A stretch of DNA of 28,192 nucleotides from IMG/VR virus record IMGVR_UViG_3300048033_000075, positions 1 to 28,192 of that record; one strand, written 5' to 3'. This stretch comes from a virus. The position numbers and the translations under genes were made by a program. The notes under the pieces are model-generated. The model was not told the DNA's origin and searched no databases. It was given only the letters and a program-made list of their open reading frames with translations. Numbering within the stretch: position 1 is the first letter of the stretch; every line of letters begins with the position of its first letter. Positions 12,761-23,021 of the stretch are shown piece by piece.

Positions 12761-12882
12761 TCCTTTCCGGATTCCCCTATAAGTATTACTAGATAAACAA
12801 CTACCCTTACTTTAAGTATTTACTTGGGGTAACCACATCCAGATTCTGCCCTCTAGGTATTTCCCTAGGGGGTTTTATTTTG
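12761..12882 (+). ncRNA. Predicted ~120-nt non-coding transcript (promoter to terminator)
   Basis: This segment is bounded by a consensus promoter and a strong terminator, and it contains no ATG or GTG, so it cannot encode a normal protein. The RNA begins with a pyrimidine-rich stretch (TCCTTTCCGG, complementary to AAGGA-type ribosome sites) and can fold centrally: TACCC (12811-12815) with GGGTA, enclosing AAGTA/TACTT. It could be a small regulatory RNA, or the terminated form of an early leader whose readthrough supplies the early genes, by analogy with lambda 6S RNA or the put RNAs of HK022. No RNA family is recognised. Confidence 0.6.
12849..12882 (+). terminator. Strong rho-independent terminator
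   Basis: CCCTCTAGG (12849-12857) pairs with CCTAGGGGG (12864-12872): nine pairs including one G-T wobble around a six-base loop. It is followed by TTTTATTTTG. It ends the short transcript from the 12726 promoter, before any gene is reached. Confidence 0.85.
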
Positions 12883-13016
12883 TCTTGGTGTCAATTTTAC
12901 ACCTCAGGAATTTTTCTTAGAAAATTTCTTCACGCATTGTACATACAATAGGCTACGCGCGACCCCCGGGGATGCCTCTACTATCTTACGAAAAAAAATA
13001 TCCCCCGTCAACCCCA

Positions 13017-13260
13017 AAAGTAAATCCCTTTTGTGGTCACAAAAAGTAATTCCTTCCAGTGTGCCGACTGTTTTTGTGGTCACAAATAGGAATTACTTAA
13101 GGAATTACTGCGGGAAATACGTTAACACCCAAAGTAACCCTATCAACCCTCTGAAAGTAATACACAAATAGTAATCACTGACAGAATATTTTTCTTTCCT
13201 ATTATATAGTATAAAATATACTTCGAAAATTAATTTAAAATAAATCATTTTTTCTCTTGC
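13017..13260. other. Candidate replication origin: iterons, palindromes and AT-rich tract
   Basis: Two near-identical palindromes, TTTTGTGGTCACAAAA (13029-13044) and TTTGTGGTCACAAA (13073-13086), have centres 43 bases apart, close to four helical turns. Each is flanked by AGTAATTCCT-type elements: 13044-13055 forward, 13088-13097 and 13099-13109 inverted, with degenerate copies AAAGTAA at 13017, 13131 and 13154. Immediately right, about 13184-13260 is almost pure A/T, a plausible unwinding element. This is the largest gene-free stretch in the window and lies between the divergent arms. Origin function is inferred from architecture. A regulator-binding array is the main alternative. Confidence 0.45.
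13178..13205 (+). promoter_or_regulatory. Possible early-operon promoter
   Basis: CTGACA (13178-13183) and TATTAT (13200-13205), with a 16-base spacer, form a fair sigma70 promoter inside the AT-rich tract. It would give a leader of about 385 bases before the first early gene. It is weaker than the 12726 promoter but has no terminator between it and the genes. Confidence 0.4.
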
Positions 13261-13524
13261 AATCCATTTTGACCTATGTCATTAATGATTCATCGGCAAA
13301 CAAACACCGGATCAACCGCCACGGCAAATGAATCCAACATGAGTTTCCGAGCAAGGCCTAGCAATCAAGAGGGCCACACGGAAATAAAAAGACTTGACTA
13401 CGCAGACAGAATATGCAGACTGAATAACAAGACGACACATAGACTAGCTTAAGGACAGCGTCCAAGATACGGGGCGGTAGAACGGTGACTTGAATCAGCC
13501 CGTCGAATGTTGGGGCTAGTGTGT
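13261..13524. other. Early leader region without a convincing gene
   Basis: I see no well-supported gene here. The longest rightward frame with an ATG (13339-13452, 37 codons, MSFRARPSNQEG onward) lacks a ribosome site and shows no recognisable motif. The long leftward frame across 13358-13807 runs antisense through a well-supported gene and is rejected. Base composition changes from AT-rich to mixed at about 13290. The stretch probably forms the 5' leader of the early transcript, ending in the hairpin at 13525-13582. Confidence 0.4.
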
Positions 13525-13582
13525 TTGATTGATATGGGGGCATCTGAAATCCTCCCTCAACGGGTGTCCCTTTATCAATCAA
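13525..13582 (+). promoter_or_regulatory. Long RNA hairpin just before the first early gene's ribosome site
   Basis: Bases 13525-13546 pair with 13561-13582: 21 of 22 positions pair, four of them by G-U wobble, with one U-U mismatch (13535/13572). The outer ten pairs (TTGATTGATA/TATCAATCAA) are perfect. The 14-base loop contains CCTCC, an anti-Shine-Dalgarno sequence that could pair with the GGAG of the ribosome site at 13587-13590. Wobble pairs imply selection as RNA. It ends two bases before AAGGAG, so control of translation is likely. Confidence 0.6.
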
Positions 13583-13597
13583 CCAAGGAGTAAGAAT

Positions 13598-13831
13598 ATG
13601 ACCTATAGAATAAACATTGCAGAAGGCAAGGGCCGTAACTGGAACGATACTGGCTTGCAGTATAGCCACTATTATGCTGTCGAGACAGATTATCAAGAGA
13701 CAATGCTCAGGATTGTCGATGACTTGATGCAGATATATCCGTATCCGGCCTATGACATAACGGTGTCTAAGTCTACTACGACTAGCACAAAGGTATTCTT
13801 GGCACAAAACATGCCACTAAATATGGGTTGA
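13598..13831 (+). CDS. First early gene, 77-residue protein of unknown function
   Basis: The start ATG 13598 is preceded by AAGGAG at 13585-13590, so upstream in-frame ATGs are not used. The protein begins MTYRINIAEGKGRNWNDTGL and contains YSHYYAVETDYQETMLRIVD, an aromatic, acidic segment. It looks like a small soluble alpha/beta protein. It is the first gene of the rightward arm, so by analogy with T7-like phages it may be an early host-takeover factor, but no motif shows this. Expression is probably controlled by the hairpin just upstream. Its stop codon lies within the foot of the next leader hairpin. Confidence 0.7.
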   Translation: MTYRINIAEGKGRNWNDTGLQYSHYYAVETDYQETMLRIVDDLMQIYPYPAYDITVSKSTTTSTKVFLAQNMPLNMG

Positions 13832-13870
13832 CTTATCAGGAGACATCTGCAAGGGTGTCTCTCAATAAGT
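13831..13870 (+). promoter_or_regulatory. Second leader hairpin with GCAA tetraloop
   Basis: The stem is 13831-13836 with 13865-13870 (ACTTAT/ATAAGT), then a 2x2 internal loop, then 13839-13848 with 13853-13862 (ten pairs, three of them G-U), closed by GCAA, a stable GNRA-type loop. It shares CATCTG and GGGTGTC, in the same arms, with the hairpin at 13525-13582. It starts at the last base of the previous stop codon and ends nine bases before AGGAG of the next gene, so it probably controls translation of that gene. Confidence 0.6.
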
Positions 13871-13892
13871 AAATCTTAACAGGAGCAAGACA

Positions 13893-14612
13893 ATGGCTTA
13901 TAAACTCTTAGGCGTAGGGACTAACGCAAAAACAGTCAAAGGTGATGGCGACGAATACCTCACCGCTATTGTATACATGACCCCATGGAAAGTAATGGTT
14001 GATGGCAAGGCGTTTAACTCTTGCAGCATGGCAGAACAAGCTGGGTGCATCAATGCCTGTCTCAATACCGCTGGGCGTGGCGCAATGAATAGCGTTCAAG
14101 CTGCACGAGAACGCAAGGCGCAATGGTTTTATCGTGATCGTGATGGTTTCATGCGACAGCTTATGGAAGATATTGCCAAGTTCCAAACCTATTGCAACAA
14201 GCGTGGCATTCAGCCTGTGGTGAGACTTAACGGCACAACAGATATACGCTGGGAATTGGTGAAGCTTGATGGCTATACTATCTTTGAATTGTTTCCACGG
14301 GTGGCGTTTTATGACTACACAAAGATTGCCAATCGCAAGGTCTCACATATCCCAAACTACCATTTGACTTGGAGTTATAGCGCCGCAAGTAAATCTTATG
14401 CGGCATTACTTGATAAAGCTTTGGCGGCTGGTATGAATGCGGCTGTAGTATTTCGCAAGGCAATGACCAAACCAACATGGAGCGGCTTGCCTGTGGTTAA
14501 TGGTGATGCGGATGACCTGCGCATATTGGACCCCAAAGGTGGTCACATCGTGGCGCTATATGCCAAGGGCAAAGCAAAGCGCGACACATCCGGCTTTGTG
14601 GTTGATGTATAA
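13893..14612 (+). CDS. Phage Gp88-like conserved protein (tentative)
   Basis: This is a 239-residue protein starting at ATG 13893 with AGGAG at 13880-13884. The hallmark is CSMAEQAGCINACLNTAGRG (residues 44-63) followed by NSVQAARERKAQWF and DRDGFMRQLMEDI, and a C-terminal LDPKGGHIVALYAKGKA with DTSGFVV. I recall this signature from a widespread phage family often labelled Gp88-like, biochemical role unknown. The Cys triad (44, 52, 56) could bind a metal or iron-sulfur cluster, which is inference. It is the second early gene and lies behind its own structured leader. No membrane segments. Confidence 0.65.
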   Translation: MAYKLLGVGTNAKTVKGDGDEYLTAIVYMTPWKVMVDGKAFNSCSMAEQAGCINACLNTAGRGAMNSVQAARERKAQWFYRDRDGFMRQLMEDIAKFQTYCNKRGIQPVVRLNGTTDIRWELVKLDGYTIFELFPRVAFYDYTKIANRKVSHIPNYHLTWSYSAASKSYAALLDKALAAGMNAAVVFRKAMTKPTWSGLPVVNGDADDLRILDPKGGHIVALYAKGKAKRDTSGFVVDV

Positions 14613-14620
14613 AAAAGGGG

Positions 14621-14652
14621 TTGACATCTAGGGTACACTCTGACAGTGTACC
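14621..14652 (+). promoter_or_regulatory. TTGACA followed by an 8-bp inverted repeat: possible regulated promoter
   Basis: TTGACA (14621-14626) is a perfect -35, but no good -10 lies 16-18 bases on. Instead GGTACACT-CTGAC-AGTGTACC (14632-14652), an inverted repeat with eight-base arms, covers that position. Either this is an operator over a weak promoter that needs an activator, or an RNA hairpin in the leader of the gene at 14701. The short T run after it (TTTACATG) makes a terminator unlikely. Confidence 0.4.
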
Positions 14653-14700
14653 TTTACATGCCAACGCATGAAACAAACTCAAACTCAAAAGGAGAACATC

Positions 14701-14925
14701 ATGTTCTATTGCATCGCAACAAAGCCACTCAATGACGACACTCAAGGCTTCCGCTTCAATGTTCTTGGCCTCAAGGGTCTGACCCGCAAGCGTGTCGCCA
14801 AGAAACGCTGGGGGATTACGTCAGGTAAATCCATGAAAGCAATTCACATCGGCTATCGTTCAGTTTACTTTGAGCGTGTGCTAAATAAAATGTCATCGCG
14901 TCGGATACGTCACTTTGCAGGATGA
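14701..14925 (+). CDS. Small basic early protein, 74 residues
   Basis: AAGGAG lies six bases before ATG 14701, fixing the start downstream of an earlier in-frame ATG. The protein begins MFYCIATKPLNDDTQGFRFN and becomes very basic (GLTRKRVAKKRWGITSGKS, and SSRRIRHFAG at the end). A compact basic protein of this size in the early region could bind nucleic acid. I do not recognise a family. The gene follows an inverted repeat with a -35-like box, so it may be regulated separately from the previous gene. Confidence 0.65.
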   Translation: MFYCIATKPLNDDTQGFRFNVLGLKGLTRKRVAKKRWGITSGKSMKAIHIGYRSVYFERVLNKMSSRRIRHFAG

Positions 14926-15055
14926 CCTGCCAAGATTTCTCGAAAGAGAATTAGATATGATGGGTGTCATGCCTCACAGTGTGACACCTAAACAACCACA
15001 AGAAAAACCTGAGCCACCTAAAGTATGGGATGGCAAAGGTGATTGCCCATTCTAA
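14915..15055 (+). CDS. Small proline-rich early protein (start uncertain)
   Basis: The frame from TTG 14915 gives 46 residues beginning (M)QDDLPRFLERELDMMG. It ends with a Pro/Lys/Glu-rich linker and the tail KVWDGKGDCPF. Overlap with the previous gene suggests coupled translation. ATG 14951 or 14954 would give a 33-34-residue form. The gene ends 10 bases before the next start, with TAAGGAG joining stop and ribosome site. Within it, GGTGTCA (14963-14969) and TGACACC (14982-14988) form a seven-base inverted repeat. Function unknown. Confidence 0.45.
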   Translation: MQDDLPRFLERELDMMGVMPHSVTPKQPQEKPEPPKVWDGKGDCPF

Positions 15056-17191: not shown

Positions 17192-17393
17192 CCACATGGA
17201 TTCAGTAGCCGCAACACTATATTTCCTAGGTGTATACTTTCACTACGTACACCTTCAAACTATCTTCGATCTACTTGATAGACATGAAGACTTAGACAAA
17301 GGTAGGGCTAAACTAAGAAGTTTGTTTTGGCCTTGGACAGTAGTTTGTATCATATGGTATGACCTATTTGGAAATGACGAGGATGAAGAATGA
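17181..17393 (+). CDS. Small two-helix membrane protein
   Basis: The start ATG 17181 overlaps the end of the primase-helicase. The product of 70 residues (MTFSHMDSVAATLYFLGVYF onward) has two hydrophobic segments (about residues 8-28 and 47-64, the latter FWPWTVVCIIWYDLFG) separated by a charged loop (LLDRHEDLDKGRAKLRS), with an acidic tail NDEDEE. A two-pass inner-membrane protein is likely. It lies between helicase and polymerase and its stop overlaps the polymerase start. Holin-like features exist, but the early position argues against a lysis role. Function unknown. Confidence 0.6.
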   Translation: MTFSHMDSVAATLYFLGVYFHYVHLQTIFDLLDRHEDLDKGRAKLRSLFWPWTVVCIIWYDLFGNDEDEE

Positions 17394-18367
17394 AAACTGT
17401 AGCAATGGACATCGAAACAGAGAGCCTAGACCCTGAACATATCTGGGTTATCTGTGCCGAAGATGTAGACACTGGGGATCGTGAAAGATTCCTTAACGTC
17501 ACATCAATACCCGAAGAAAGAGATCGGTTTGTAGACTACCTCAAGGGCTGTGAATACTTTGTGTTTCACAATGGCATAGGCTTTGATGTCAAGGTAATCA
17601 ACAGGCTACTAGGTAACATCATGCCTACTGACAAGGTGATAGACACACTGATTGTGTCACGCCTAGTACAGTACGACATGAAAGATCAAGACGAAAAGAT
17701 GCGTAAGAAACTTCTCGCTAAGTACAAGAAGGAATCTCTAGTAGAAAAGAAATTTCCTAGGCGCATGATTAACCGCCACAGTTTAGCCTCATGGGGTTGT
17801 CGTCTTGGTGAGTACAAGACAGGCTTCAAGGACTTCGACAAACTATCTGACGAGATGATTGAATACTGTGAGCAGGACGTTATTGTGACTGTCAAATTAT
17901 ACAATCACTTTAGGAATATCATTGAAGACCCTGAATGGCATGAGGCTATTCGGTGTGAGCATGACATACAGATACTGTGTGAACAGATGTCTCACAATGG
18001 TTTCTTCTTTGAAGAAGATAAAGCAGAGGAGTTGTTAGGTGAAATCCATTCAAGAATGGAAGACCTTGAACGCAGTTTTCAAGAAGACTTCCCCCCTAAA
18101 CTTGCGGAAGTCAATCGTATCAAGTACCGAAGGAAAGCAGATGGTACTCTATTCTCTAGTGTCAGCAAAGCACAAGAAAAATACTTTGCTACGGCGCTAG
18201 ATAAATCGGTTGACCCCAATGAATTAGTGTGCTATGAGTACATCAACTTCAACCCAGCGTCACCTAAGCAGCGGATCGAAAGACTATGGGAAGCAGGTTG
18301 GGAACCATTTGAAAAAACGAAAGGACACATTGAGTATGAACGCGAACAACCAAGAGCGTGGCGCTAA
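17390..18367 (+). CDS. DNA polymerase A, N-terminal part (3'-5' exonuclease; frame broken)
   Basis: This 325-residue frame has the proofreading exonuclease of T7-like polymerases: ExoI with Asp7 and Glu9 (MDIETESL), ExoII HNGIGFDV, ExoIII YCEQDV (Tyr-x3-Asp). It then runs into the thumb region (NPASPKQRIERLWEAGW, EKTKGHIEYERE). After EYERE the similarity I recognise stops, and the frame ends at TAA 18365 while the homologous sequence continues one base out of phase in the next ORF. Repairing this needs one base skipped at about 18344-18366. It may be a programmed +1 frameshift, a true split polymerase or a sequencing error. It is encoded right after the primase-helicase and membrane protein. 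Confidence 0.85.
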   Translation: MKTVAMDIETESLDPEHIWVICAEDVDTGDRERFLNVTSIPEERDRFVDYLKGCEYFVFHNGIGFDVKVINRLLGNIMPTDKVIDTLIVSRLVQYDMKDQDEKMRKKLLAKYKKESLVEKKFPRRMINRHSLASWGCRLGEYKTGFKDFDKLSDEMIEYCEQDVIVTVKLYNHFRNIIEDPEWHEAIRCEHDIQILCEQMSHNGFFFEEDKAEELLGEIHSRMEDLERSFQEDFPPKLAEVNRIKYRRKADGTLFSSVSKAQEKYFATALDKSVDPNELVCYEYINFNPASPKQRIERLWEAGWEPFEKTKGHIEYEREQPRAWR

Positions 18368-19364
18368 GTTTGCCAAGTACGGATGGACATTGTCCGAAGG
18401 TAACTTAAGCACACTACCTAACTCTGCACCTGCCGGAGGCAAACGTCTCGCTGAGTGGCTTACCCTTGAGGGTCGGCGTTCATCTCTGGTGGAGTGGTTA
18501 GGCCATGTCAAAGAGGACTCACGGATACACGGTCAGTTCCAGCACATCGGTGCGTGGACAGGACGTATGTCTCACCGTGACCCTAACCAAGCTAACATCC
18601 CATCTGAGTTCCATGGTGAACCTAAGACAGAAGTAGAAAAGGTTAAGGCAAAGTATGACGGACAGTTTCGTGGTCTGTGGTCTGTGCCTGAGGGTTCATG
18701 GTTGGTTGGTACGGATGCAGAAGGTATCCAGCTACGTGTACTTGCGCACCTTATGAAGTCCGAAGAATATGTACACGCTATCGTGTCAGGTAAGAAGGAG
18801 GACGAAACAGATATTCACAACCTCAACCGTAAGGCTTTGGGTATGTCTCACATCACGAGAGACATGGCTAAGACATTCATCTATGCCTTTCTACTAGGGG
18901 CAGGTAACGCTAAGATTGCGCAGATACTCAAGGTAAAACCTAGAGAAGCAGCGGAGGCAGTAGATAACTTTATGGAATCTATCCAAGGCTTATCTAAACT
19001 AAAGAAGAAACGTGTGCCTGAGATTGCAAGCCGTGGTTGGTTCAAAGGTATTGATGGTCGTAAGGTAAAAGTTCCTAACGAACACAAGACCTTAGCTGGC
19101 ATGTTACAAAACGGTGAGTCTGTAATTATGAAACACGCTGCACTCAAGTGGGTACGCCGTGCGGAGAGACAGTGGATTAACTTCCGTCTTGTTACATGGC
19201 CCCACGATGAATGGCAAACAGAAGTTTGCGGAGATTATCCAGACGCTGAGTTGCTGGGTAAGATACAAAGAGAGTCTATTGAAGAGGTAGGCGAAGAGTT
19301 TAACATGCTATGTCCACTAGCCGGATCGACGGACATCGGTAGGAACTGGAGAGATACCCATTGA
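18336..19364 (+). CDS. DNA polymerase A, C-terminal part (polymerase domain)
   Basis: The polymerase half is in the +1 frame of the preceding ORF. I list it from ATG 18336 (MNANNQERGAK), which has AAGGA at 18321-18325; the frame is also open further upstream. Motif A is LVGTDAEGIQLRVLAH (catalytic Asp), motif B is RDMAKTFIYAFLLGAG, motif C is WPHDEWQTEV (catalytic His-Asp-Glu); all catalytic residues are intact. The motif B residue equivalent to E. coli Pol I Phe762 is Tyr, and the one equivalent to Tyr766 is Leu. Both halves together would be about 650 residues, close to T7 gp5 (704). The protein ends at TGA 19364, just before the overlapping microgene. Confidence 0.88.
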   Translation: MNANNQERGAKFAKYGWTLSEGNLSTLPNSAPAGGKRLAEWLTLEGRRSSLVEWLGHVKEDSRIHGQFQHIGAWTGRMSHRDPNQANIPSEFHGEPKTEVEKVKAKYDGQFRGLWSVPEGSWLVGTDAEGIQLRVLAHLMKSEEYVHAIVSGKKEDETDIHNLNRKALGMSHITRDMAKTFIYAFLLGAGNAKIAQILKVKPREAAEAVDNFMESIQGLSKLKKKRVPEIASRGWFKGIDGRKVKVPNEHKTLAGMLQNGESVIMKHAALKWVRRAERQWINFRLVTWPHDEWQTEVCGDYPDAELLGKIQRESIEEVGEEFNMLCPLAGSTDIGRNWRDTH

Positions 19365-22477: not shown

Positions 22478-22830
22478 TTACACAAGAAGATATAGATGCT
22501 TTCAGCATAGTCAATGTAACCCCTATGGAGTACTCATACTGGGTAGAGGGTAAGATTGTTACACGAGGTGAGAAGCGGTTGGTAGAAAACACCTTAGGTC
22601 TAGTCGGAGAGGCTGGAGAGGTAGCTGAGAAGATTAAAAAGTACCTTCGAGATGACACCAAGGTTAGTCAGAAAGAAATTATCAAGGAGTTAGGTGACGT
22701 TTTGTTTTACACGACAGCCTTAGCTAATTACTTCTACAGTAACTTACCTGAGGTCTTGGAAAGCAATATGGATAAACTAAACAGCCGTGCTAAACGTGGT
22801 GTCATTAAAGGATCAGGGGATAACAGATGA
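22474..22830 (+). CDS. MazG-like nucleotide pyrophosphohydrolase
   Basis: From ATG 22474 the protein has 118 residues. It contains the MazG/all-alpha NTP pyrophosphatase motif: ENTLGLVGEAGEVAEKIKKY (Glu residues for metal binding) and, after a helix, IIKELGDVLFYTTALANYFY (the Glu-x2-Asp motif). Such enzymes hydrolyse nucleoside triphosphates to monophosphates. Phage copies may change the nucleotide pool or ppGpp-related signalling in starved hosts. It sits between DNA-processing genes and the reductase. The start was chosen because AAGGA lies about nine bases before 22474. The stop overlaps the next ATG (ATGA). Confidence 0.85.
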   Translation: MITQEDIDAFSIVNVTPMEYSYWVEGKIVTRGEKRLVENTLGLVGEAGEVAEKIKKYLRDDTKVSQKEIIKELGDVLFYTTALANYFYSNLPEVLESNMDKLNSRAKRGVIKGSGDNR

Positions 22831-23021
22831 AACAGAAGTGGGTAAACAATATCTTTGTCAGGTTTATGCGGTACTGCGTGATGTGGTCAGAGCATCGGGA
22901 AGCAGTTAAGATTTTGAACCGATTGTCTGATAGGGAACTAAAGGACATTGGCATCAGTCGAGAAGACATTGACCGTATGGTCTGGCTAGAAGAAGATAAG
23001 ACAATGCGAGGGCGTGGCTAA
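22827..23021 (+). CDS. DUF1127 (YjiS-like) small protein
   Basis: This is a 64-residue protein starting MKQKWVNNIFVRFMRYCVMW, with the DUF1127 signature LSDRELKDIGISREDIDRMV at residues about 33-52 and a short Arg/Glu-rich tail. DUF1127 is common in alphaproteobacteria, where members are linked to phosphate and carbon metabolism and RNA turnover. I recall a DUF1127 gene as a feature of roseobacter cobaviruses. It is coupled to the MazG-like gene (ATGA overlap) and to the reductase start. A host-derived regulator acting during infection is a reasonable inference. Confidence 0.85.
   Translation: MKQKWVNNIFVRFMRYCVMWSEHREAVKILNRLSDRELKDIGISREDIDRMVWLEEDKTMRGRG

Follow-up and report, generated by a model that had tools for sequence, protein, structure and literature searches.

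Two hairpins stand immediately before the ribosome-binding sites of the first two early genes of a marine phage, raising the question of what such a repeated element would do at the head of an early transcript. The stretch analysed here, termed the window, is a virus record of 28,192 nt. A preliminary description, made from the sequence alone, had read the two hairpins as a duplicated leader element that controls translation, or as a site common to both genes at which RNA is processed or a protein binds.

Hairpins of the early region and their setting

The gene set of the window is that of Cobavirinae, and its source is a cobavirus-like roseophage. Its two arms, together with the genes for primase/helicase, DNA polymerase, ThyX, 5'-3' exonuclease, MazG and ribonucleotide reductase, resemble those of the comparison phages, namely Roseobacter phages CRP-4 and SIO1 and Lentibacter phage ICBM1. 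The DNA polymerase is encoded in two overlapping plus-strand frames, 17390-18367 (exonuclease part) and 18234-19364 (polymerase part), and that of phage CRP-5 is likewise split (gp12, gp13). Between the arms lies a non-coding stretch (13228-13436) with 82% identity to CRP-4 and about 70-73% to ICBM1 and SIO1. This stretch probably carries an early promoter (TTGACT-16-CAGACT, 13394-13421, inside DNA conserved with CRP-4) or an origin; a simple consensus scan gave no convincing promoter candidate near 13394-13421. Palindromic GTGGTCAC / TTTTGTGGTCACAAA repeats, which resemble DNA-binding sites, occur in AT-rich intergenic DNA at 13019-13110 and 12818-12830. The plus arm opens with gene 1, a Gp88-family gene and gene 3, each preceded by a hairpin and a Shine-Dalgarno (SD) sequence (Table 1).

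Table 1. Hairpins, ribosome-binding sites and genes at the start of the plus arm (window positions)
Feature	Position	Strand	Remarks
Hairpin A (leading, class A, long loop)	13525..13582	+	21/22 positions paired; model R1 64.7 bits (copy in training set)
CCTCCC in hairpin A loop	13551..13556	+	Most conserved loop element of class A
SD of gene 1, AAGGAG	13585..13590	+	Read from sequence
Gene 1, 77 aa	13598..13831	+	Without family match
Hairpin B (class B)	13831..13870	+	Model R3 (not trained on the window copy) 46.7 bits, E 4e-7
SD of gene 2, AGGAG	13881..13885	+	Read from sequence
Gene 2, Gp88 family (PF17338, phrog_1617), protein of uncharacterised function	13893..14612	+	
Hairpin C (third intergenic hairpin)	14620..14665	+	Upper helix GGGTACACT/AGTGTACCT; lower helix with one A-C mismatch
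SD of gene 3, AGGAG	14690..14694	+	Read from sequence
Gene 3, 74 aa	14701..14925	+	Without family match; 14701 is the likely start

Refolding reproduced hairpins A and B with the positions and pairing first described. In hairpin A, 13525-13546 pairs with 13561-13582, including four G-U pairs and one U-U mismatch, around a 14-nt loop (AAAUCCUCCCUCAA). Hairpin B consists of a 6-bp helix (13831-13836/13865-13870), a 2x2 internal loop (CA/CA), a 10-bp helix (13839-13848/13853-13862) and a GCAA tetraloop, and can be extended to 13825-13876. These structures are not products of chance. Shuffling gives z-scores of -6.0 for A and -6.5 for B, with none of 200 shuffles equally stable; the arms CATCTG and GGGTGTC, already noticed as common to both, occur as a pair (CATCTG-N(2-20)-GGGTGTC) at A and at B and nowhere else in the window, against an expectation of 0.01; and a generic two-helix hairpin scan scores them 36.8 and 34.8, where 0.14 matches of at least 34.8 are expected on both strands of 28 kb of Markov sequence. 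The SD begins 2 (A) and 10 (B) bases beyond the outermost pair, in line with the distance of at most about 10 bases reported before. The proposal that the structures form in RNA also held. On the opposite strand the folds weaken from -28.5 to -19.0 kcal/mol for A and from -22.4 to -13.0 kcal/mol for B, which assigns both structures to plus-strand RNA. Hairpin C, missed in the preliminary description, has a shuffle z of -3.8, and its opposite strand folds slightly more stably. At the gathering score the hairpins match no Rfam family, the sole similarity being a match in hairpin shape to mir-223, far below cut-off. Further downstream, a strong inverted repeat of unlike architecture (GGGTGTCATGCC..GTGTGACACC, 14956-14995, plus strand) overlaps the beginning of a reading frame of 33 codons that lies between genes 3 and 4.

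Recurrence, covariation and the rule of position

Relatives were gathered through the Gp88, primase and gene 1 proteins and a DNA pattern. The covariance-model search that had been suggested as a check was carried out with two models, R1 for class A and R3 for class B, alongside a structural scan requiring an upper helix of at least 8 bp, a small internal loop and a lower helix of at least 6 bp. Together they returned about 60 copies, from other phage contigs and from two cultivated isolates: in ICBM1 hairpins at 842-895, 1141-1188 and 1471-1518 of MF431617 stand ahead of genes 1, 2 and 3, and in CRP-5 one stands ahead of gp02. SIO1, searched with the models, gave no match. The element is thus repeated, as first proposed, but "duplicated" understates a family placed before many early genes. 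Outside its training set, R3 recognised window hairpin B, L063:5615 (70.8 bits), a copy in contig L075 (51.9 bits) and many further copies, among them L142:3018, L143:2363, L143:3863, L013:529, L013:1325 and L137:4901. Class A also occurs in contigs partly similar in DNA to CRP-603, CRP-2 and CRP-9, which we take to be HMO-2011-type roseophages, and in the unrelated-looking contigs L031 and L032.

The two classes differ in anatomy. Class B has a lower helix of about 9 bp, a 1x2 or 2x2 internal loop, an upper helix of about 10 bp (consensus GGNGGCAYYC/GGGTGTCNC) and a terminal loop of 3-7 nt, often GNRA-like; the medians over copies are helices of 9 + 10.5 bp and a 4-nt loop. Class A forms a nearly uninterrupted helix of 21-25 bp, usually with one mismatch among its 21-25 paired positions, closed by a loop of 6-16 nt with CCTCCC.

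Compensatory stem changes, the second check suggested at the outset, are present in both classes. In a plain MAFFT alignment of class A, 94.4% of cells are paired, compared with 75.8% in shuffled and 38-50% in slid alignments, a percentage biased upward because the structure tested was the RNAalifold consensus of the same alignment. The stronger evidence is the occurrence of changes on both sides in 14 of 19 pairs, equalled by none of 500 shuffles. For class B the corresponding values are 83.1% of cells paired (75.8% shuffled) and two-sided changes in 10 of 21 pairs, equalled by at most one of 500 shuffles. Base pairing is therefore under selection in both classes.

Position is equally regular. 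An open reading frame follows 60 of the 62 listed copies, the gap to its start being mostly 10-34 nt, and nearly all have an SD. In an unselected scan, 44 of 63 de-duplicated strong matches on the strand of the query genes have an SD and a start in the next 40 nt, compared with 2 of 17 on the opposite strand and 17% of random sites.

The proteins encoded downstream fall into 32 clusters of unrelated families, and one family may stand behind either class. Class A precedes the gene 1 family in the window and in L142, the MEIERVE family in L063, and Gp88 in L004, L023 and L031. Class B stands before the first two of these families in L143 and before Gp88 in the window, L011 and L013. Hairpin class tracks place in the operon, not gene identity, and gene-specific regulation by the hairpins is therefore unlikely. 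The CCUCCC hairpin comes first in all cobavirus-like loci that show several hairpins, but in the L031/L032 pair it leads in one contig and takes second place in the other. An array is found in L143, a 40-kb contig in which a full model search confined the copies to a 1.6-kb early stretch: six hairpins stand in a row, A and then B directly before each of five successive reading frames, so that hairpin-SD-gene units follow one another along the stretch. In this array an SD with a four-codon reading frame (MNWG*) separates hairpin A from the hairpin after it (2349-2372); it is perhaps what remains of a lost gene, or else a leader peptide. Because hairpin class goes with order and not with the gene, such units suggest how small early genes get swapped.

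Probable processing at gene boundaries and competing explanations

By analogy with phage T7, the hairpins are likely to be RNase III-type processing signals, one per leading early-gene boundary. The structure, covariation, position, recurrence and T7 likeness observed here all bear on this reading. The architecture is that of T7-type signals, an irregular hairpin of about 20 bp with two helices of about one turn each and a small internal loop; the placement agrees as well, between genes, shortly before the ribosome site and in several copies per transcript; and the two-sided changes show pairing maintained by selection. Of the two branches of the earlier proposal of a shared processing or protein-binding site, which pointed in the right direction, processing is now the best supported.

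According to this model, host RNA polymerase would produce a polycistronic early RNA. Folding and covariation show that each boundary forms about 20 bp of paired RNA, in which two helices stack on either side of a small, asymmetric internal loop. Host RNase III would then cut at each hairpin, as shape and position suggest. As in T7, cleavage would free the downstream gene with a short leader and its own SD, and would leave the upstream mRNA with a folded 3' end; in this way cutting may affect expression. Lying closest to the presumed promoter, class A would shorten the long leader, like T7 R0.3. Several points count against RNase III: the class B profile matches no T7 site, the enzyme of S. 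meliloti prefers longer duplexes, SIO1 has no match, and hairpin C is slightly more stable on the opposite strand.

Conservation of the upper-helix sequence exceeds what RNase III needs and could mean a specific protein. A phage or host RNA-binding protein might recognise the hairpins and co-regulate the early genes as one regulon, through translation or through antitermination. Some of the upper-helix sequence is indeed conserved both among the copies of one phage (GACATCTGCAA..GGTGTC) and across phages (A3), and every copy lies near an SD. This explanation is nevertheless rather unlikely, since copies in L008, L016, L126 and phage Lo5R7ANS swap most helix pairs while keeping the geometry, and no candidate protein emerged. 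ICBM1 carries the hairpins yet gave no Gp88 match, which excludes Gp88 as a dedicated partner; self-regulation by Gp88 was rejected likewise, as hairpins exist without it.

Stable stems directly 5' of each SD would also suit uncut stabilisers that block exonucleases or RNase E, or that insulate the SD from upstream structure. Such a role requires neither the recurring internal loop nor the fixed total of about 20 bp, yet both are kept, which makes it improbable. The preliminary description had pointed to CCTCC in the loop of hairpin A as able to pair with the nearby GGAG; such pairing with the SD of its own gene would make a switch in cis. Complementarity of 3-5 bp does exist, but class A loops pair on average as well with the SDs of other phages (4.43 bp) as with their own (4.29 bp). 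In hairpin A, moreover, 22 stacked pairs and about 2 linking bases separate loop and SD, and across copies the 2-6 linking bases cannot span a 22-bp stem. With the stem holding them apart and foreign SDs fitting equally, the loop is no simple lid on its own SD; class B has no CCUCC loop although its genes have the same SDs. The cis switch was accordingly rejected, and its probability is very low. Chance inverted repeats or transcription terminators, which have nothing in their favour except that the elements are hairpins, deserve practically no weight, given the shuffles, covariation and recurrence on the one hand and, on the other, the absence of any intrinsic terminator (T-run after a stem) in 13000-14750.

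Comparison with anti-Shine-Dalgarno RNAs and T7 sites

In addition to the proposed processing, a further role is suggested for the CCUCCC loop of class A. CCTCC is present in 16 of 17 class A loops and CTCCC in all 17 (14% of shuffled loops), and the letters CCUCCC are those of the anti-SD core of 16S rRNA. Alphaproteobacterial sRNAs (SmelA075/SmelA099; CcsR of Rhodobacter) combine variable stems with a constant CCUCC-containing loop, called anti-Shine-Dalgarno (PMC3927594). As such RNAs are known in alphaproteobacteria, hairpin A, once cut out, might persist as a stable sRNA of about 50-60 nt whose loop pairs in trans with the SDs of host mRNAs early in infection. This idea is speculative and, on balance, doubtful; if true, it would describe a phage anti-SD small RNA derived from the phage's own leader. 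Hairpin A is not a member of the SmelA075/CcsR type, in which three or four hairpins with a CCUCCUCCC loop stand in tandem, whereas class A is a single hairpin with a CCUCCC loop and a much longer stem, located in an mRNA leader. A small DUF1127 protein (PF06568) is encoded just upstream of ribonucleotide reductase (22827-23021, plus strand), 9 kb from hairpin A and thus without the linkage expected of that type. The Rhodobacter DUF1127 protein CcaF1 is an RNA-binding regulator working with CcsR RNAs (PMC10253847). Of the 19 phage records searched for DUF1127, 13 have it, among them SIO1, ICBM1, CRP-4 and CRP-5 and, more weakly, CRP-2, CRP-9 and CRP-603; this distribution does not track the loop, and a link between the two is not supported.

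The statement that no described element has this shape does not stand, as T7 R0.3, R0.5, R1 and R4.7 match in shape and position. RNase III cuts T7 early RNA at five sites (PMC4858673). In vitro, T7 R1.1 RNA is also cut by the purified enzyme of S. meliloti, an alphaproteobacterium; this RNase III prefers longer duplexes than that of E. coli and differs somewhat in site preference (PMC6121014). The same structural scan run on T7 recovered R0.5 and R4.7 at the strict threshold, R1 and R18.5 at a lower one, and R0.3 and R1.3 with relaxed settings, 16-27 nt before the gene (R18.5 at 48 nt); R0.7, R3.8 and R6.5 were not recovered by it, and the structures found at R1.1 and R13 are not clearly the known ones. 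T7 sites likewise consist of two stacked helices of about 10 bp, a small internal loop larger on the 3' side and a tetraloop that is often GNRA-like, and they likewise lie between genes, about 15-30 nt ahead of the next start, in several copies per early region. R0.3 (AAGGGTATC-GCAA-GGTGCCCTT) has the GCAA tetraloop of hairpin B. R1 reads AGTCTTATCT-ta-CAGGTCATC-(tgcg)-GGTGGCCTG-aat-AGGTACGATT, and hairpin B in the same layout GGGTTGACTTAT-ca-GGAGACATCT-(gcaa)-GGGTGTCTCT-ca-ATAAGTAAATCT. The agreement between CATCTGCGGGTG of R1 and CATCTGCAAGGGTG of hairpin B has no second instance in T7 (expected 0.06) and is suggestive only. The best match of the R3 profile on T7 (E 3.8) is not an RNase III site; T7 sites were thus not found to be sequence homologues of class B, and an analogy of working is claimed, not common descent.

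Strong RNase III-like hairpins also precede the first two genes of the T7-like Mesorhizobium phage Lo5R7ANS (Autographiviridae; 1055-1103 and 1686-1742). They lie a short way 5' of the starts and pair at 21-23 positions, arranged as one helix or two; their stem sequence differs from that of the window, the models miss them, and the record carries no processing-site annotation.

The cobavirus paper mentions terminators and the absence of a phage RNA polymerase (PMC6775973); neither it nor the RCA-phage papers mention a hairpin or an RNase. No description of an anti-SD-like loop heading an early transcript was found in a literature search that took in few subscription papers. If the processing model is true, gene-by-gene maturation of early mRNA by RNase III, best known from T7, extends to abundant marine phages, both cobavirus-like phages and those behind the contigs similar in DNA to HMO-2011-type roseophages, and the hairpin models offer a search tool for gene boundaries in uncultured phages. 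The internal loop is 2x3 in T7 and 1x2 or 2x2 in the phage hairpins described here, which, unlike those of T7, occur in phages for which the absence of an RNA polymerase of their own has been reported (SIO1, PMC6775973). Class A, with its nearly uninterrupted helix and conserved CCUCCC loop, is without a T7 counterpart, and this leading hairpin, as a distinct class, is what is new relative to T7.
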